IMG/VR virus record: IMGVR_UViG_3300023082_000254
Location: 1 to 46,722 of that record
Length of the DNA: 46,722 bases
Reading direction: 5' to 3' (one strand)
Source of the DNA: a virus
Shown here: positions 7,414-30,491 of the stretch, in pieces
Numbering within the stretch: the stretch's first letter is position 1
Layout: each line of letters begins with the position of its first letter
Made by a program: the position numbers and the translations under genes
The notes under the pieces: generated by a model
The model's database searches: none
Told to the model about the DNA's origin: nothing
The model's input: the letters and a program-made list of their open reading frames with translations, nothing else

Positions 7414-9197
7414 CAGGCCGCCTGCCGGAGCTCGGTGGCCGCCTTCTGGATCACGGCGTAGAGGCCGCGACAGATGGCAACGAAGTCGCTCTCGGCGTAG
7501 AGCTTCGCGCCACGCTCGGTGCTGACCGGATGGAAGCCGATGGATGCCAGGCCGTCGGCGGAGATCGCGAGCGGGGCGATCCGCTGGTTGATCTCGCCGA
7601 GCTTGATCGTGCGGGCAGGTGCGGACGGCGTCGTCGCGAACGGGAGCGGATCCTCCATCGCGCGCAGTTCGGCGGTTACATCACGGTGACCGACGAGGTC
7701 GCCCACCGCCTCGACGTAGGGCTTGCGCGGCTCAGGGGCTGCCGCCGGTGCCACCACCGGTTCCGGCTCTTCTGCAGGCGCAGCAGCGGCGCGCTCGCGC
7801 TCGGCGGCCTCGAGGCGTTCCCGCTCGGCGTCGGCCTGTTCCTTCTCCAGTATCGCGCGCTCCTGCTGGCGGATGCGCTCGCGCTCGGCCTCAAGGCGCG
7901 TTTCCTCCGCTCGCTTGTGAGCATCGATACGAGCAGTGATAGCCAGTTTGAAGTCGTCCAGCGGTTTCGCAGCCAGCTGCTGCAGGTCGGCCAGCAGCGC
8001 TCGATGCTCGCCGGCGTTCTCATCGACCCACGCCAGCTTGGCGCGCAGGTCCTTCGCCTGGCGATCAACGGCGATCTTGCCGTTCGCCAGCGCCGTGTCG
8101 AGCTTGTCGTCGATACTGGTGAGGGTCTTGAGCCCCTTGATAGCGCCTGCGAAGTCCGGCATCACCACATCGATACGGAGTCCATGTATCTCCCGCTGGA
8201 GCTCGGCGACGTGACTGGTGAAGAGCCAGCGGGCGGACTCAATACGCTCAGCACGGCGGCTCGCCTTCTCCCGCTCCAGCAGCTTTTCGGCCATGAGCCG
8301 GTTGTCGCGCACCAGCTTGGTGAGCATGTCTTTCTGGCGCTTCGCCTGGTCGACGCTCTCGATCTGGGCGAGCATCATCGACTCCGCTGCGTTGAGCGTG
8401 TCCTCGGCCCTCTTCATGGCCTTGATCTGCTGGTCAAGGTCGACGAAGTCCTGATCGGTCTGGGGCTCGCGGATCAGCTTGTTGTCGAGGAAGTCGCGGA
8501 GCGCCGTCTCGAACACGTTGAAGTTTTCGCGGATCGATATCTGACCGACGACCTGCACAGCAACCGCCGGAAGCGCCTGGACAACCTCGGCGACCATCAC
8601 CGGCTTCTGTTCCGGGAGGGCGTAATCGGTGAGGTCGCGGTCGAACTGCGCCCATCCGTCCCCGATGCGCTCGAACCACGCGGTGTCGGGAAGAACCTCC
8701 ACCCACACAAGGTTGTCCGGCGTGCCGTCGGACACGGTGAAGATCACGCGCTCGGCACCGGTAATCATCATGATCTGCTGGCACTGCGGCATGTGCTCGT
8801 CGGGCACCTCTCCGACGGCTACCATTGCGGCAAGTGAGGCATTCCACTGCTTATGCTCGAAGGCGGTCTTCCCGTCCATCGTCAGGCCGTCGCAAGACGC
8901 CGAGAGATGGCCGCCCACGTCTTCGTCAGAGCACGTGACGGGGTACAAGTCATCGCCGATGATGGCCTCAACGAGCGGGCGAGCCAGCGCTTCCACGTGA
9001 TGGCCGTGGTCGAGGATGTTCTCTTGCACCCAGTCGCTGAACTCCTTCGCGTCGCCCAGGTGCTTCATGCGGAGAAGGTCGGAGCGCTTCGTCAGCTTGG
9101 AGAGGCCGAGCATGGCTGCGGCTTCGCTGGCACCGTGTCGCGTCAGGCGGAATGCTGCCCACTCGTCGCTACCCTGTACAAGGTCGTGAATCTTCAT
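7413..9197 (-). CDS. YqaJ-type recombination exonuclease with long C-terminal coiled coil
   Basis: A 594-residue protein. Residues 1-200 are a YqaJ/lambda-Exo-type PD-(D/E)XK nuclease: GASEAAAMLG (22-31), Asp103 in SCDG, the Glu114-x-Lys116 pair in FEHK, and a Gln-rich helix PQCQQIMMITG. Such enzymes resect double-stranded ends 5'-3' to feed strand annealing. Residues 230-330 and 420-480 are strongly helical and charged, resembling phage DUF1351-like coiled coils. A Pro/Ala linker (about 490-515) leads to a small C-terminal domain (530-590) with LGEINQRIAPLAISADGLASIGF, reminiscent of a DNA-binding/clamp module. At roughly twice the length of a plain exonuclease it appears to be a fusion. It starts one base inside the stop of the putative annealing-protein gene. 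Confidence 0.85.
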   Translation of the reverse strand: MKIHDLVQGSDEWAAFRLTRHGASEAAAMLGLSKLTKRSDLLRMKHLGDAKEFSDWVQENILDHGHHVEALARPLVEAIIGDDLYPVTCSDEDVGGHLSASCDGLTMDGKTAFEHKQWNASLAAMVAVGEVPDEHMPQCQQIMMITGAERVIFTVSDGTPDNLVWVEVLPDTAWFERIGDGWAQFDRDLTDYALPEQKPVMVAEVVQALPAVAVQVVGQISIRENFNVFETALRDFLDNKLIREPQTDQDFVDLDQQIKAMKRAEDTLNAAESMMLAQIESVDQAKRQKDMLTKLVRDNRLMAEKLLEREKASRRAERIESARWLFTSHVAELQREIHGLRIDVVMPDFAGAIKGLKTLTSIDDKLDTALANGKIAVDRQAKDLRAKLAWVDENAGEHRALLADLQQLAAKPLDDFKLAITARIDAHKRAEETRLEAERERIRQQERAILEKEQADAERERLEAAERERAAAAPAEEPEPVVAPAAAPEPRKPYVEAVGDLVGHRDVTAELRAMEDPLPFATTPSAPARTIKLGEINQRIAPLAISADGLASIGFHPVSTERGAKLYAESDFVAICRGLYAVIQKAATELRQAA

Positions 9198-19798: not shown

Positions 19799-20001
19799 CC
19801 AACGCCGCACGCATCCGCGCAGCACTCGGCGAAGGTCCGGCAACCACGCAGGAACTGGTGGCCGAGCTGGGCATGGCGAGGAACTACATCGCCGCACAGC
19901 TGACCGTCATGGCACGGCGCGGCCATCTCCGGAAGAAGCCGTTTGTCGGCACCGACGGGCACACACGGAACCTATGGTCGCTCCGGAGGGCCCATGGATG
20001 A
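19795..20001 (+). CDS. Small winged-helix protein, 68 aa
   Basis: A 68-residue winged helix: ARIRAALGEGPATTQELVAELG in part (GPATTQELVAELGMARNYI), then VMARRGHLRKKP and a short wing with HTRNLWSL. It is a likely regulator in the nin-like region. ATGA overlaps with both neighbours. Confidence 0.7.
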   Translation: MTNAARIRAALGEGPATTQELVAELGMARNYIAAQLTVMARRGHLRKKPFVGTDGHTRNLWSLRRAHG

Positions 20002-20228
20002 CCGTATACAGACACCTGACCCATGCCATGGCGATCATGCGCAGGGAGCCGGATTACCGGAAGTGGGGGCCGATGATCGATGCCCTGACACCGGAGGAGC
20101 AGGCGGAGTGCCGGTCGTGGCTCCGCGTGCAGGCCGAGATGGCCCGCGCCCGTCAGCGCGCACGGGCTTCGAAGGCTTCCCGACCGGCGTCCTCGGCTGG
20201 CAGCTCGAGCGGGCGAAGGAAGACCTGA
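19998..20228 (+). CDS. Small hypothetical protein, possibly truncated by a frame change, 76 aa
   Basis: The first 55 residues look natural (TVYRHLTHAMAIMRREPDYR; IDALTPEEQAECRSWLRVQ) and begin at an ATGA overlap. The last 20 residues (Ala/Ser/Arg-rich) look like a shadow, while the -1 frame at the same place encodes a good coiled-coil end. The original gene may have continued into that frame. No family recognised. Confidence 0.55.
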   Translation: MTVYRHLTHAMAIMRREPDYRKWGPMIDALTPEEQAECRSWLRVQAEMARARQRARASKASRPASSAGSSSGRRKT

Positions 20229-20838: not shown

Positions 20839-21027
20839 CGTTTCCACCGGTCAGGCCCGCTACACGCACCTTGATGCCCCGACGTGCAGTCGTCGCGGTG
20901 CTGCCATCTCCCGAGCGTTAACCCCTGACGCACCGCCGGACTCCCCTCCGGCAATGGCTCGTTGTGCCTGACCACTTCTTCCGGGCCGCCGGCGCTTAGG
21001 CGCGGGCCCAACCATTTTGGAGTTCCG
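20839..21027. other. Late leader region
   Basis: No gene recognised. GC-rich sequence between the terminator and the endolysin gene. It ends with TTTTGGAG, which serves as the endolysin ribosome site. A short frame runs through it into the endolysin frame but lacks a ribosome site. Confidence 0.4.
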
Positions 21028-21669
21028 ATGGACGCCAGGACATTGCAGCTGGCGGCAGGGATTCCTCCTGCCCTCGCCAGCATGTGGGCACCCCATGTCA
21101 CGGCGGCCATGGCCCGCTTCGGCATCGACACGCCGCAGCGCCAAGCCGCCTTCATCCCGCAGATTTCGCACGAGTCGGCTGGCTTCACGCAGTTGCGTGA
21201 GTCGCTCAACTACTCGGTGCAGGGCCTGCGCACGACGTTCCGGGACCGGGTCAGCGCGGATGATGCGGCGCGGCTGGGCCGGAAAGACGGCGAGGCACCT
21301 CTGTCGGCAGCTCGCCAGATGGCGATCGCCAATCTCGTCTACGGCGGCCGCTATGGCAACAACAGCGCCAACGACGGGTGGACTTACCGCGGTGGTGGGC
21401 TCAAGCAGATCACCTTCCTTGCCAACTACGCCGCGTGCCGCGATGCCATCGGCTTCGACCTGGTCACGCACCCGGAGCTGATTACCACCCCCGAGGTGGC
21501 CGCACTCTCCGCAGGCTGGTTCTGGAAGGCGAACAACTGCAACCACTACGCCGATACCGACGACTTCGTCGGGCTCACTCGAAAGATCAACGGCGGCGTA
21601 AACGGCCTGGACGAACGAAGGGCGCTGTGGCGCGTCGCGCGCCCGGCGCTGGGACTGGTGGCTCTGTGA
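21028..21669 (+). CDS. Endolysin, GH19 chitinase-type muramidase
   Basis: A 213-residue lysozyme of the GH19 family that cuts cell-wall glycan at lysis. Catalytic Glu49 lies in ISHESAGF, with Glu58 in LRESLNYS as second acid; YRGGGLKQIT (120-129), WFWKANNCN (164-172) and LTRKINGG (183-190) are the typical later motifs. There is no signal peptide, so export through a holin is expected. GGAG lies six bases before the ATG at 21028; the longer upstream start lacks a ribosome site. Confidence 0.92.
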   Translation: MDARTLQLAAGIPPALASMWAPHVTAAMARFGIDTPQRQAAFIPQISHESAGFTQLRESLNYSVQGLRTTFRDRVSADDAARLGRKDGEAPLSAARQMAIANLVYGGRYGNNSANDGWTYRGGGLKQITFLANYAACRDAIGFDLVTHPELITTPEVAALSAGWFWKANNCNHYADTDDFVGLTRKINGGVNGLDERRALWRVARPALGLVAL

Positions 21670-23568: not shown

Positions 23569-24105
23569 ATGGGCGCACCCCGAATGAACGCGGCGTCCAA
23601 GCGGACTGCCGTTCCCAGTAAGGCCACGAAGGGAAACAAGGCGGCGAAGGGTGCCAACACCGGAGGCCGCCCGTCGAAGTTCCGGGAAGAGTTCGTCGAG
23701 CAGGGTGCCAAGCTCACCCGTATGGGTGCCACAGACGCTCAGCTGGCTGACTTCTTCAAGGTGACGCTCTCTACCCTGTACCTGTGGAAGGTCCAGCACG
23801 ACGGGTTTTCGGAGGCCCTAAAGCGGGGCAAGGATGAGGTCGACGCCCAGGTCGAGCAGTCCCTGTTCCGCCGGGCCATGGGCTACACGCACGACAGCGA
23901 GAAGATATTCCAGTCGTTCGGTGCCGTCGTCCGGGCCAAGACCCAGGAGCATTACCCGCCAGACACCACGGCGATGATCTTCTGGTTGAAGAACCGGCAG
24001 CCTGAGAAATGGCGCGACAAGCCAGACGGTGGAGCGGATGACGCACCGCCCACGCCTGTGTCTGTGACGATCGAGGTGCGCGATGCCCGCCGTCAAAGCT
24101 CTTGA
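23569..24105 (+). CDS. terS: Terminase small subunit
   Basis: A 178-residue DNA-recognition subunit of the packaging motor. A basic, disordered N terminus (KATKGNKAAKGANTGG) leads to a helix-turn-helix (EFVEQGAKLTRMGATDAQLADFF in part, VTLSTLYLWK), then an oligomerisation helix (GKDEVDAQVEQSLFRRAMGY) and PPDTTAMIFWLKNRQPEKWRD in part, the hallmark end of this type. An alternative ATG at 23584 is also in frame; neither has a clear ribosome site. It overlaps the large subunit by 23 bases. Confidence 0.9.
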   Translation: MGAPRMNAASKRTAVPSKATKGNKAAKGANTGGRPSKFREEFVEQGAKLTRMGATDAQLADFFKVTLSTLYLWKVQHDGFSEALKRGKDEVDAQVEQSLFRRAMGYTHDSEKIFQSFGAVVRAKTQEHYPPDTTAMIFWLKNRQPEKWRDKPDGGADDAPPTPVSVTIEVRDARRQSS

Positions 24106-25426
24106 GGTCCGGCCGAGCCTGAACGTCCCTCAGGCGCAGTTTCTCGCCTTGCCACACAAGTTCCGGGCCTTCGTGGCCGGGTTCGGCTCGGGGAAGACGT
24201 GGGTCGGGTGTTCCGGGCTCGCGCAGCACTTCTGGGAGTTCCCTGGCATCAATGCTGGGTACTTCGCGCCGACCTACCCGATGATCCGGGACATCTTCTT
24301 CCCCACCATGGATGAGGTGGCCTTCGACTGGGGCCTGCGCGTTGTCACGCGAGAAGCAAACAAAGAGGTCCACGTCTACTCAGGGCGCCAATACCGTGGC
24401 ACGGTCATCTGCCGCTCGATGGAGAAGCCGGAAACCATCGTCGGCTTCAAGATCGGTCGCGCACTGGTCGATGAGCTGGACGTCCTGAAGAAGGAGAAGG
24501 CGCGGGCAGCATGGCGGAAGATCATCGCCCGCTTGCGCCAGAAGGCCGACGGCCTGGTCAACGGCATCGATGTCACGACGACGCCCGAGGGCTTCCAGTT
24601 CGTTTACGAGCAGTGGGTGAAGGAAGTTCGCGAGAAGCCTGAACTGGCCGCGATGTACGGCATGGTTCAAGCCAGCACGTACGACAACGAGGCGAACCTG
24701 CCGGATGACTACATCGAATCGTTGCGCGGTAGCTACCCGCCGCAGCTGATTCAGGCCTACCTCGACGGGCAGTTCACGAACCTGCTCAGCGGCACGATCT
24801 ACCACCAGTTCGATCGCAACCTCAACGGTTGCAGCGACACGATGAAGACCGGCTCCAACGGTCAGGCTCTTGAGGCGCTGCACATCGGTATGGACTTCAA
24901 CGTCGGCAAGATGGCTGCCATCGTCCACGTAAAGCGCGAGGCACAGCCGCGCGCCGTGGACGAGATCATCGACGGCTACGACACACCGGACATGATTCGG
25001 CAGATCAAGGAACGCTACTGGCGTCACGATGGCGATGTCTTCAAGAAGACGTGCGAGATCATGATCTACCCGGATGCCTCGGGCGGATCGCGCAAGTCCG
25101 TTGGAGCCTCGGTCACCGATATCGCCCTGCTGAAACAAGCGGGTTTCGGTGTCTCGGCACCAGGCGCTAACCCGCCAGTGAAAGACCGCATCAACGCCAT
25201 GAACGCCATGTTCTGCAACGCGCTGGGTGAGCGCCGCTACAGGGTGAACGTAGCGAAGTGCCCGCACTATGCGGACCACCTCGAGCAGCAGATATGGGCG
25301 CCCAACGGCGAGCCTGACAAGTCCTCCGGGGCTGACCACACGAACGACGCCGGTGGCTACTTCATCCACCGCACCTATCCGGTCATTAAGCCGGTGTCCA
25401 AAATCACGATGGGATTTGCGAACTGA
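24083..25426 (+). CDS. terL: Terminase large subunit
   Basis: A 447-residue packaging ATPase and nuclease. Walker A is AGFGSGKT (32-39), Walker B ALVDELD (127-133) with Glu131 as catalytic carboxylate, and a TTTP coupling motif lies at about 165-168. The C-terminal RNase H-like nuclease shows Asp271 (GMDFNVG), Asp331 (YPDASG) and Asp422 (HTNDAGGY). Full family length. It ends one base inside the portal start (TGATG). Confidence 0.95.
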   Translation: MPAVKALEVRPSLNVPQAQFLALPHKFRAFVAGFGSGKTWVGCSGLAQHFWEFPGINAGYFAPTYPMIRDIFFPTMDEVAFDWGLRVVTREANKEVHVYSGRQYRGTVICRSMEKPETIVGFKIGRALVDELDVLKKEKARAAWRKIIARLRQKADGLVNGIDVTTTPEGFQFVYEQWVKEVREKPELAAMYGMVQASTYDNEANLPDDYIESLRGSYPPQLIQAYLDGQFTNLLSGTIYHQFDRNLNGCSDTMKTGSNGQALEALHIGMDFNVGKMAAIVHVKREAQPRAVDEIIDGYDTPDMIRQIKERYWRHDGDVFKKTCEIMIYPDASGGSRKSVGASVTDIALLKQAGFGVSAPGANPPVKDRINAMNAMFCNALGERRYRVNVAKCPHYADHLEQQIWAPNGEPDKSSGADHTNDAGGYFIHRTYPVIKPVSKITMGFAN

Positions 25427-26856
25427 TGGCTGGAGACGTCACCACCACGCGCGCGGACTACGACGCTGCCCGCAAGCTGTGGGAGAAGGTCGACGACGCC
25501 ACGGCTGGCGAGTACGCGGTGAAGGAGAAGCGGGAGGCTTACCTGCCGCGCCCGAACCCCACGGATACGAGCCCTGCCAACCTCGCTCGCTTCGATCAGT
25601 ACGTCTTCCGCGCGGTGTATGTGAATGCTGTCGGGCGCACGGTGAGCGGCCTGGTAGGCGTCGCCTTCGGCCAGTGGCCGAATATCGAACTGCCTGCCGC
25701 CCTGGACTTCCTGAAGGATGACGCCAATGGCGCCGGAAGCTCGCTGATCCAGCAGGCGCAGGCCGCTGTCACCGGCAACCTGAAGCGCGGCCGTGGTGGC
25801 CTGCTGGTGGACTTCCCGCAGGTCGACGGCGACGTCTCCAAGGCCGATCAGGCCGAGCAGCGCGTGCATGCCACGATCACGAATTACGAAGCGAAGGCCA
25901 TCATCAACTGGCGTCCCGTCCGCCTGCGTGGCCGCACGGTGCTGGGCCTCGTCGTGCTGGCGGAGACGTACGAGGTCGAAGACGAATTCGGCACCGAGAC
26001 GAAGCCGCAGTACCGCGTGCTGCGTCTCGATAGCACCTACACCATGGAGGTATGGCGGAAGAACGAAGCAGGGCAGTGGGAAACGACCACGACCACGCCG
26101 GTGGATTCCGCCGGCAATCCTTGGACCGAGATTCCGTTCACCTTCTACGGCGCCCAGAACAACGAGCCGGACATCGGCCCGATCCCAATGTACGACCTGT
26201 GCGTGATCAACCTCGCGCACTACCGCAACAGCGCGGACTACGAGGACTCGGTCTACACGTGCGGGCAGCCGCAGGTCTGGCTCGCCGGGCTCGACGAGGC
26301 ATGGCGCGATCATCTGGAAGAGCAGGGCATGTACGTGGGCTCGCGCGCGGTGGGCATGCTGCCCGTTGGTGGCTCGGCCGTGATGCTCCAGGCACAGCCG
26401 AATACGATGGCGAAGGAGGCCATGGACCAGAAGGAAGCCCAGCTCGCCGCGCACGGCGCGCGCCTGGTGCAGCCCGGATCCGCAGCGAAGACCGCGACGC
26501 AGACCGACAGCGAGGACGCAACAGCCCACAGCGTGCTGTCTCTGGTGTGCGACAACGTCTCGGCGGCATTCACAAAAGCGTTGGGCTGGGTGCAGGCCTT
26601 CGAGGGTGTCACTGGCACGGTCAGCTTCGCCATCCCGACGAAGTTCGTGACCGACACGCTCGATGCCCCGACGCTGACCGCGCTGTTCGCCGGCGTGCAG
26701 CAGGGCCTGATTCCCGAGTCCGACTTCTGGGCCAAGGCACGCGAGGCGGGCTTCATCGACGCCGAGAAGACCGACGACGAGATCCGCGAAGAGATCGCCC
26801 AGCAGAACCCGGGCGGCGGCGCGGCTGACGCGCTGGACGATCCGGAGGTGACCTGA
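25426..26856 (+). CDS. Portal protein, DUF4055 type
   Basis: A 476-residue portal subunit that forms the head vertex ring through which DNA passes. It resembles the DUF4055 class: N-terminal YLPRPNPTDTSPANLARFDQY in part, FRAVYVNAVGRTVSGLVG, ITNYEAKAIINWRPVR, and the C-terminal part with SAKTATQTDSE-like polar loop and helical crown. Location directly after the large terminase and before the MuF gene confirms it. Confidence 0.9.
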   Translation: MAGDVTTTRADYDAARKLWEKVDDATAGEYAVKEKREAYLPRPNPTDTSPANLARFDQYVFRAVYVNAVGRTVSGLVGVAFGQWPNIELPAALDFLKDDANGAGSSLIQQAQAAVTGNLKRGRGGLLVDFPQVDGDVSKADQAEQRVHATITNYEAKAIINWRPVRLRGRTVLGLVVLAETYEVEDEFGTETKPQYRVLRLDSTYTMEVWRKNEAGQWETTTTTPVDSAGNPWTEIPFTFYGAQNNEPDIGPIPMYDLCVINLAHYRNSADYEDSVYTCGQPQVWLAGLDEAWRDHLEEQGMYVGSRAVGMLPVGGSAVMLQAQPNTMAKEAMDQKEAQLAAHGARLVQPGSAAKTATQTDSEDATAHSVLSLVCDNVSAAFTKALGWVQAFEGVTGTVSFAIPTKFVTDTLDAPTLTALFAGVQQGLIPESDFWAKAREAGFIDAEKTDDEIREEIAQQNPGGGAADALDDPEVT

Positions 26857-27287
26857 TGAGCGTCGTGGTCCTGCGTGAAGGCGTGCTCGCCTCCGACTCT
26901 CTGGCCTATGGCGGGGACTACCAGACGTCGCCGGGCACTAAACAGAAGCTCTTCCGCCTGGCTGATGGTTCGAGGGTGGGCATCACCTCGGGCAAGGTAG
27001 GGCAGTCCGAGCGCTTTATGGCTTACCTGCGTGGCGAGGTTGAGGCCTCGGCCCTGAGCGACGTCGCATGGGACGTACGCGCCATCGTTGTAAAGCCTGA
27101 CGGCTCGGTCTATCTGGCCGACGACTCGCTGCACATGAGCGGTCCCATCCGGTGCGACTTCTATGCCATCGGGAGCGGAGCCAAGTATGCCTTGGGCGCC
27201 ATCGCGGCCGGGGCCAGCGCGCCGGAGGCAGTCGAGGCCGCCATTCGGTTCGACCAGCACTCTGGCGGCGATGTGAGGACGATCTAA
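26856..27287 (+). CDS. HslV/proteasome-like Ntn-hydrolase in the prohead-protease position
   Basis: A 143-residue protein resembling the HslV/20S proteasome fold. The first strands read SVVVLREGVLASDSLAYGG, where Asp14 (ASDS) matches the proteasome Asp17 and Lys29 or Lys31 (GTKQKLFRL) matches Lys33; the later GSVYLADDSLH, DFYAIGSGAKYALGAIAAGAS in part and FDQHSGG follow the family order. After removal of Met1, Ser2 would be the N-terminal nucleophile in place of Thr1. It is encoded exactly between portal and MuF genes, where phages often keep the capsid maturation protease. Overlaps the portal stop by one base. Activity is unproven. Confidence 0.75.
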   Translation: MSVVVLREGVLASDSLAYGGDYQTSPGTKQKLFRLADGSRVGITSGKVGQSERFMAYLRGEVEASALSDVAWDVRAIVVKPDGSVYLADDSLHMSGPIRCDFYAIGSGAKYALGAIAAGASAPEAVEAAIRFDQHSGGDVRTI

Positions 27288-28372
27288 TGGCTATCTCCGC
27301 CGCACTGGTCGATACCTTGACGCGGCACCAGGTGCTGATCCAGCGCCTAACCGCCGGCGAGGTGGCGGCATTCTCGCCGGCGCTTCGTGCGATTGACGCT
27401 TTGATCCGCAAGCGCCTGAGCGGGGACGAGCTGACGGACTACAGTCGCGACAGGCTGGAGAAGCAGCTCACCGAGACGGAAGTCGCCATGCAGGCCCTGC
27501 AGTCGGCGTTCTGGAAGACGCTGTCCAAGGCCGTGATCGAGTTCGCCCAGCACGAGGCCGCCTTCTCGGCGCGCGCACTGGAGCAAGCCGTGTCGGACTT
27601 CGAGGCGGCCGTGCCATCCGCAACTCAGGTTCGTGCCGCAGTCCTATCCCGCCCGCTCAGCGTGCGCGGCGCCGGCGGCGGCAAGCTGCTGGACCGCTTC
27701 GTCAGCGACTGGAGCCAGAGCGAGCGCGATGCCGTCGTAGGCACGATCCGCCGCGGTGTCTACGAGGGAAGGACATATGCCGAACTGGTGCGCGAGGTGC
27801 GGGGCACGAAGGCTCGTAACTACGCCGACGGCGTGCTGAATACGACCGCCAGGCACGCGCAGGCGGTGATCCACACGTCGATGCAGCATGCCAGCAGTGT
27901 GGCAAGGCAGGAGACGCTGCAGGCGAACGAGGATGTGGTGGTCGGATGGCGCTTCATCGCGACGCTCGACAGCAAGACGACGGCGCAGTGCCGGTCGCTG
28001 GACCAGACAGTGTTTCCCGTGGGCAAGGGGCCGATCCCGCCTGTCCACATCAACTGCCGCTCCACCAGCGTGCCGGAGCTGAGCGACGACCTGTCAGGCC
28101 TGCGACGGGGTGCGAAGCGCCCTGCAGTGGTCAACGGCAAGGCCCAACAGGTCGCGGCGAACGAAACATACTATGAGTGGCTGAAACGTCAGCCTGCCGC
28201 CTTTATCGAGCAAGCCATTGGCCCGACCCGGGCGCGGCTACTCATGGACGGCGGGTTAAGCGCAGAGCGCTTTGCGGCGCTCCAGCTCGACAAGAATTTC
28301 CAGCCGCTGACGCTGGACGAGATGAAGGCGCTGGAGCCATTGGCATTCCAGCGAGCCGGGCTCTCAGATTGA
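27287..28372 (+). CDS. Minor head protein, MuF/SPP1 gp7 family
   Basis: A 361-residue head morphogenesis protein. The MuF signature spans about 225-260: TLDSKTTAQCRSLDQTVFP in part, then GPIPPVHINCRS with Cys235, His254 and Cys257. Upstream is a long helical region (50-215) typical of the portal-associated part. It is present in a few copies in proheads near the portal. Starts inside the stop of the Ntn-hydrolase gene (TAATG). Confidence 0.92.
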   Translation: MAISAALVDTLTRHQVLIQRLTAGEVAAFSPALRAIDALIRKRLSGDELTDYSRDRLEKQLTETEVAMQALQSAFWKTLSKAVIEFAQHEAAFSARALEQAVSDFEAAVPSATQVRAAVLSRPLSVRGAGGGKLLDRFVSDWSQSERDAVVGTIRRGVYEGRTYAELVREVRGTKARNYADGVLNTTARHAQAVIHTSMQHASSVARQETLQANEDVVVGWRFIATLDSKTTAQCRSLDQTVFPVGKGPIPPVHINCRSTSVPELSDDLSGLRRGAKRPAVVNGKAQQVAANETYYEWLKRQPAAFIEQAIGPTRARLLMDGGLSAERFAALQLDKNFQPLTLDEMKALEPLAFQRAGLSD

Positions 28373-28740: not shown

Positions 28741-29457
28741 ATGCTGAAGTATCAGATCGACAGCCTTGACGGGCTGGACGAATCCACGCGCGCGTTATAC
28801 GTGGAGAAGGACGGAAAGTTCGTCCTGGCCATCGAAGGCGCACCGCAGCCGGAGGACGTGTCCGGGCTGAAAAAGAAGGTTCAGGAGCTGCTGGACGAGA
28901 AGAAGGCCGGCGACGAGCGCCGCAGGCAGGCCGACGAGGATGCCCGCAAGGCCGCCGAAGAGCTGGCCCGGAAGGGCGGCGATGTCGAAGCTCTCGATAA
29001 GAGCTGGACCGACAAGCACGCGAAGGCCCTCGGCGAGAAAGACACCGAGATCGGGACCTTGCGCCACCAGGTGCGCGACCTGACGGTGGGCCGCACGGCC
29101 ATCGAGCTCGCAGCAGGCCTCGCGGTCGCTGGCAGCGAGCGGATCCTCTCTCGCTTCATCGAGGAACGCCTCGATATGGAAACCCGCGACGGCCGCCCCG
29201 TGGTGGTCGTGCGCGACAAGGACGGCAAGCCCTCGGCGCTGAGCGTTGATGAGCTGAAGACCGAATTCTCCAACGATCCGGCGTTCGCGCCGCTGATCGC
29301 TGGGACACGGGCATCCGGCGGCGGGGCCGGCGGTGCCAAGGGCGGCGGGGCCGCGAAAACGAAACTCTCCGACTATTCCGAGCAGGAGCGAATTGCCCTG
29401 CGCCGGGATGACCCCTCCACCTTCAACCGACTGGTTGAGGAAGCCAAGCAAAGGTAA
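28741..29457 (+). CDS. Capsid scaffold protein
   Basis: A 238-residue scaffold that guides prohead assembly and leaves afterwards. It has the usual pattern: short N-terminal domain, long charged coiled coil (LKKKVQELLDEKKAGDERRR, about 43-90), then ALGEKDTEIGTLRHQVRDL in part, and a Gly-rich linker before a C-terminal basic helix (capsid-binding end). It immediately precedes the major capsid gene. GGGAG lies before the ATG. Confidence 0.88.
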   Translation: MLKYQIDSLDGLDESTRALYVEKDGKFVLAIEGAPQPEDVSGLKKKVQELLDEKKAGDERRRQADEDARKAAEELARKGGDVEALDKSWTDKHAKALGEKDTEIGTLRHQVRDLTVGRTAIELAAGLAVAGSERILSRFIEERLDMETRDGRPVVVVRDKDGKPSALSVDELKTEFSNDPAFAPLIAGTRASGGGAGGAKGGGAAKTKLSDYSEQERIALRRDDPSTFNRLVEEAKQR

Positions 29458-29462
29458 CCCCC

Positions 29463-30491
29463 ATGGCAATCACCACCATCGGTGACATCGTCACCGGCAA
29501 TGAAGCCGTCATCGCCTCGTACCAGACGCAGGAGCCGGTCGAGAAGACTGCATTTTTCGAGTCCGGCGTGCTGACGTCGACCCCGCAGATGGCCGAGATC
29601 GCGAACGGCCCGTCCAACATCGGTAACGTGCCGTTCTGGAAGCCGATCGATGCCAGCATCGAGCCGAACTACTCGAATGACGTGTACGAGGACATCGCGG
29701 TCCCGCGCTCGATCAGCACCGGCGAGATGCAGGCCCGCGTCGCTTACCTCAACGAAGGCTTCGGTCAGGCCGACCTCACGGTTGAGCTGACGACGAAGAA
29801 TCCGCTGGAGTCCATCGCAGGCCGGCTCGACAACTTCTGGCAGCGCCAGGCACAGCGTCGCCTCATCGCGACGGCCGTCGGCATCTACAACGACAACGTC
29901 GGGGCCACCGACGCGTACCACACGCAGAACGACATGGTCGTGACTGCCGCTGGTGGCTGGGACGTGGGCGCTTACATCGACACGACCGCTACGATGGGCG
30001 ATGCGCTGAACGGCCTGGGCACCGTAGCGATGCACACGTTCGTGTACAACCAGCTGCGTAAGCAGAACCTGATCGACTTCGTGCCCGACAGCGAGCAGAA
30101 GACGCAGATCCCGTTCTATCAGGGCTCGCGCGTGGTGTTCGAGGACGGCATGCCCGTGTTCGGTGCCGGCAACGCGCGCCAGTTCCTCACCATCGTGTTC
30201 GGCGCGGGGGCCATCGGCTACGGCGCTGGCTCGCCCAAGACCCCGCTGGAGTACGAGCGCGTCGCCGCTCGTGCCAACGGTGGTGGTGTCGAGACGCTGT
30301 GGAGCCGCAAGACCTGGCTGCTCCATCCGTTCGGCTACAGCTTCACCAGCAACACGATCACGGGCAACGGAACGGAAACCACCGCCCGTTCCGCCAGCTG
30401 GTCTGATCTGGCGCTCGCCACGAACTGGAACCGCATCATGGACCGCAAGCAGGTCCCGCTGGCGTTCCTCGTGACCGGCACCGGTCAGTAA
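29463..30491 (+). CDS. Major capsid protein
   Basis: A 342-residue shell protein of the HK97-fold class used by phages with DUF4055 portals and MuF proteins. It starts AITTIGDIVTGNEAVIASYQ and contains a long loop-like N-terminal part, a spine-helix region (NPLESIAGRLDNFWQRQAQRRL in part) and FVYNQLRKQNLIDFVPDSE in part, then the P-domain sheets. There is no large cleaved pro-domain visible. It follows the scaffold by five bases. Confidence 0.93.
   Translation: MAITTIGDIVTGNEAVIASYQTQEPVEKTAFFESGVLTSTPQMAEIANGPSNIGNVPFWKPIDASIEPNYSNDVYEDIAVPRSISTGEMQARVAYLNEGFGQADLTVELTTKNPLESIAGRLDNFWQRQAQRRLIATAVGIYNDNVGATDAYHTQNDMVVTAAGGWDVGAYIDTTATMGDALNGLGTVAMHTFVYNQLRKQNLIDFVPDSEQKTQIPFYQGSRVVFEDGMPVFGAGNARQFLTIVFGAGAIGYGAGSPKTPLEYERVAARANGGGVETLWSRKTWLLHPFGYSFTSNTITGNGTETTARSASWSDLALATNWNRIMDRKQVPLAFLVTGTGQ

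Follow-up and report, generated by a model that had tools for sequence, protein, structure and literature searches.

The gene lying between the portal and MuF genes of the virus record analysed here (the window, 46,722 bases in its whole length) encodes a protein that is best read, with a probability of roughly 0.72, as an Ntn hydrolase of the PPH family that is mobile and accessory, probably a late peptidase and not a capsid-maturing enzyme. The open reading frame is intact, with an ATG at 26856 and a TAA finishing at 27287. Its placement between portal and MuF, pointed out in a first-pass annotation of the same DNA, is correct, and the gene overlaps both neighbors by one base. The portal stop and hydrolase start form TGATG (26854-26858), and the hydrolase stop and MuF start form TAATG (27285-27289). 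On the best reading of these overlaps, the hydrolase would be co-expressed with the head genes. The gene order of the module is terminase small subunit (TerS), terminase large subunit (TerL), portal, hydrolase, MuF, scaffold, major capsid protein (MCP), head-tail adaptor, and tail tube, with the following features.

23569-24105, plus strand: terminase small subunit (PHROG 309, E 1e-52)
24083-25426, plus strand: terminase large subunit (PF03237, E 3e-32; PF17289)
25426-26856, plus strand: portal protein, DUF4055 type (PHROG 145, E 6e-142; PF13264, E 4e-32)
26856-27287, plus strand: proteasome-like Ntn hydrolase, PPH type, 143 residues (PHROG 1040, AlphaFold, Foldseek, residue conservation)
27287-28372, plus strand: MuF/SPP1-gp7-like head morphogenesis protein (PF04233, E 9e-10; PHROG 241, E 2e-127; TIGR01641)
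28741-29457, plus strand: separate head scaffolding protein, 238 residues (PHROG 206, E 9e-55)
29463-30491, plus strand: major capsid protein, SPP1 gp13/SETP3 type (PHROG 247, E 6e-107)

The head module resembles that of SPP1 and encodes its scaffold separately. The MCP aligns with SPP1 gp13 (4an5) from residue 1 to residue 1 (E 1e-40) and shares 73% identity with the MCP of Salmonella phage SETP3; the alignments show no N-terminal extension relative to either protein. An endolysin gene (PHROG 181, with chitinase-like matches; 20962-21669) precedes the terminase genes by ∼2 kb.

The first-pass annotation had called the protein a proteasome/HslV-like Ntn hydrolase, and family matching, profile searching, and structure prediction agree with that call. 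The whole length of the window hydrolase aligns to PHROG 1040, "peptidase HslV family" (E 1.6e-28), and the same PHROG is matched by 40/40 members of the family alignment A2. Used as a single-sequence query, it gave an E value of 0.0013 against Pfam Proteasome, too weak to pass the Pfam cut-off, and, in the PDB, a weak match to BPH (E 0.024). A 40-sequence profile searched against the PDB reached HslV at 1e-13 and BPH at 2e-13. An AlphaFold model was obtained with a pLDDT of 93.1 and a pTM of 0.87, and its comparison with HslV, which had been suggested as a check, gave a matching fold: Foldseek retrieved BPH, archaeal 20S beta, and HslV (E about 1e-7, probability 1.00, TMq about 0.7) and, against BFVD, phage proteins that carry proteasome or Ntn hydrolase annotations. 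Helix H50-58 of the model is followed by merely a one-turn helix at 64-67.

The PPH family was described by Fuchs, Alva and Lupas as proteins of about 140 residues from tailed phages and their hosts, without helix H2, one helix used in inter-subunit contacts (PMC8665760). The window protein has a predicted proteasome beta-like fold, the catalytic set, and no propeptide; it is 143 residues long, and helix H2 is missing, as in the definition given there. On sequence and model, the window hydrolase is a member of a family already described in 2021. A literature search for tested PPH function or activity turned up nothing further than the description in PMC8665760, and the peptidase is unmentioned in a paper discussing phiM5 relatives. 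A pattern scan of genome contigs for host assignment, with a single protein query, gave 104 matches, 0 of them confirmed.

Asp14 and either Lys29 or Lys31 had been proposed to correspond to Asp17 and Lys33 of proteasome-type enzymes. The assignment stands for Asp14 (Asp in 55/55 relatives) and for Lys31, which precedes Leu-Phe (Lys in 55/55), and it fails for Lys29. Gly106-Ser107-Gly108 (the GSG motif), Ala112, and Gly119 are invariant among the 55 relatives, and Asp133 is retained in 43 and replaced by Asn in 11. Residue 2, a serine in the window, is Thr in 47 relatives and Ser in 8, a count that is partly circular because start sites were picked by a T/S/C motif; the circularity does not affect the Asp and Lys counts. 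The codon preceding this Thr or Ser is ATG, GTG, or TTG in 49/52 metagenomic relatives, leaving no propeptide. Support is strong for the fold and for a catalytic set of Ser2, Asp14, and Lys31, in which Ser2, next to the start codon, is the putative nucleophile, in line with the earlier suggestion. In a maximum likelihood tree, all eight sequences with Ser group in a single clade (ultrafast bootstrap 99, SH-aLRT 89), and one Thr-to-Ser change would therefore suffice. A single-origin clade with a Thr-to-Ser change of the predicted nucleophile is mildly new.

The mechanism of Ntn hydrolases and the action of methionine aminopeptidase are established and form the background to the steps expected of the window enzyme. 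Host methionine aminopeptidase would strip Met1, a removal that Ser at position 2 permits, and the freed Ser alpha-amine would act as the general base. The Ser hydroxyl, backed by Lys31 and Asp14, would attack an amide bond, and the acyl-enzyme would then be hydrolysed. The enzyme probably cleaves host or phage proteins and, as an accessory peptidase of late infection, may serve host takeover, counter-defence, or peptide recycling.

Across phages, PPH genes occupy at least six different locations, and their position relative to the order of head genes is not fixed. They are found between lysis genes and TerS (L001/L009), between TerL and portal (phiM5), near ParA/UvsW (Rhizobium phages), upstream of the terminase (phiAH14a), beside the holin (Salmonella phage QS), by the spanin/endolysin genes (Nonagvirus JenK1), and between Ad1 and Hc1 (L045/L051), and some members are near rIIA/ligase genes. 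No universal partner gene was found beside PPH, and the neighbor families are lineage-specific. The closest relative of the window protein (77% identity) is in an unrelated phage, next to lysis and terminase genes. The DNA identity between the window gene and L009 (76%, blastn) is confined to the gene boundaries, 26857-27281; the sole other blastn match between the two is a 144 bp stretch at 74%, window 19982-20122, upstream of the endolysin gene. A comparable boundary is seen between QS and SETP3, which are ∼90% identical in DNA across the aligned TerS-portal-MuF region. The blastn blocks end at QS locus position 7995 and restart at 8431, where SETP3 is contiguous (24605/24601), and the extra stretch in QS, about 435 bp, is the PPH gene, a clean single-gene insertion relative to SETP3. 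By these sequence comparisons, PPH is an optional, mobile single gene. The jumbo genome of Caulobacter phage C1 (L005) has four PPH genes; the copies at 63-488 and 286890-287315 have identical scores, and the former is inside an annotated terminal repeat.

The same type of head is found in phages that have no such gene. At loci whose portals are homologous (about 40-52% identity), MuF and scaffold homologs are mostly present too, the portal and MuF matches are spaced 21-352 bp apart, and PPH was absent from the flanks. Whole searches found no PPH in 13 records with homologous portals, several of them partial, or in the genomes of SETP3 and PSASB_03, both complete. The portal/MuF junction is occupied by an inverted amidase gene in SETP3 and by a 267-bp hypothetical gene in PSASB_03. 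SETP3, PSASB_03, and the window hold different genes at the same junction, which suggests a site for variable cargo in such head modules.

The first-pass annotation had placed the hydrolase in the prohead-protease slot, and its location between portal and MuF with overlapping start and stop codons would suit an enzyme that cuts the scaffold and/or the MCP. Portal-PPH adjacency also recurs in the L050 group, a second lineage unrelated to the window, where TerL, portal, and PPH follow in order. Searches of PPH phages for Peptidase_S78 (0/27 records) and for a ClpP-type protease (0/33 records) gave no match, each searched set including the PPH-less SETP3; the S77 search carries no information, as its control genomes gave no match either. 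However, the same kind of head module exists without the gene, PPH genes of other phages are located away from head modules, and the MCP, in register with SPP1 gp13 and SETP3 from its first residue, carries no N-terminal extension. SPP1-type heads reportedly have no internal protease (PMC6813328). In Klebsiella phage IME346, moreover, PPH coexists with an annotated head maturation protease that adjoins the MCP gene, PPH being about 9 kb off on the opposite strand. The role of prohead maturation protease is thus rejected on presence and absence, position, and the MCP N terminus, and we regard it as highly improbable. Equally slight is the chance that the inserted Ser-nucleophile Ntn hydrolase was recruited in the window lineage to head assembly, for example to remove the scaffold, in a head of the SPP1 type whose maturation otherwise involves no proteolysis. 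PPH as a replacement for S78 was not accepted, given the two genes of IME346. The L050 group (L050, L054, L058, L059, L062-L064, L066, L073, L075, and L076) is one metagenomic phage lineage. Its PPH has Asn at the Asp133 position, where most members keep Asp, and is followed by a protein of about 154 residues and then an ORF of about 1,550-1,630 residues, for which the L054 copy gave no PHROG match.

A looser link to the head, in which PPH would act late in assembly or in quality control, clearing away scaffold or structural proteins that have misassembled while being dispensable for maturation, would fit two other observations. PPH lies closer to TerL than random placement predicts (permutation p about 0.003 for 17 groups, which were collapsed by hand and include records that are fragments), and it is embedded between head or neck genes in several lineages. 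The members located close to ParA/UvsW, to rIIA/ligase, or to lysis genes do not fit such a role, nor does the absence of the phiM5 peptidase among the proteins annotated as particle-detected, which is weak evidence, and we consider it very unlikely. The proximity to the terminase is instead read as PPH having inserted into the late transcription unit or making use of it, and PPH could conceivably have a side role in assembly. A non-proteolytic Ntn enzyme, either a connectase-like protein ligase or an amidase acting on small molecules or peptides, is unlikely too, though less so. The proteasome-like family includes the monomeric ligase connectase, and PPH is without the inter-subunit-contact helix H2 (PMC8665760), where the model has only its one-turn helix. 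However, conservation extends over the H3/H4 helix region and the catalytic set of the proteasome, and the closest structures both by fold and by profile are proteases. In addition, the window protein is too short at 143 residues for the two-helix S3-S4 insertion of connectase, which is absent from the model. An accessory PPH-family peptidase thus remains the preferred reading.

The present comparison makes the single-gene mobility of PPH explicit and cautions that location between portal and MuF is by itself poor evidence for a prohead protease. The QS/SETP3 pair offers a natural with/without comparison for PPH, Nonagvirus JenK1 (host E. coli K-12 MG1655) a workable laboratory system, and the single-origin Thr-to-Ser switch a natural test of nucleophile choice in a proteasome-type fold.

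Like the PPH proteins of PMC8665760, the window protein combines a length of about 140 residues with the Thr/Ser1-Asp17-Lys33 set, no propeptide, and a missing H2; the family occurs in tailed phages and prophages. It differs in its position between portal and MuF and in its serine nucleophile, Thr being commoner among the collected relatives. PHROG 1040, to which the protein matches in full, is annotated in Rhizobium, Caulobacter, Nonagvirus, and Jedunavirus phages; its members occupy other genomic positions, and many have C-terminal tails, whereas the window protein has none. The fold and catalytic residues are common to HslV (ClpQ) and BPH, although the matched chains are longer (about 164-187 residues) and only about 17-21% identical in the fold alignments, and HslU (ClpY), the partner ATPase of HslV, is not among the head-module genes scanned in the window. 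The prohead proteases (S78/U35, S14 ClpP-like, S49, and S77) are also hydrolases encoded among head genes. In contrast to them, PPH has a different fold and nucleophile, has no fixed place, and is missing from phages whose heads are of the same kind.
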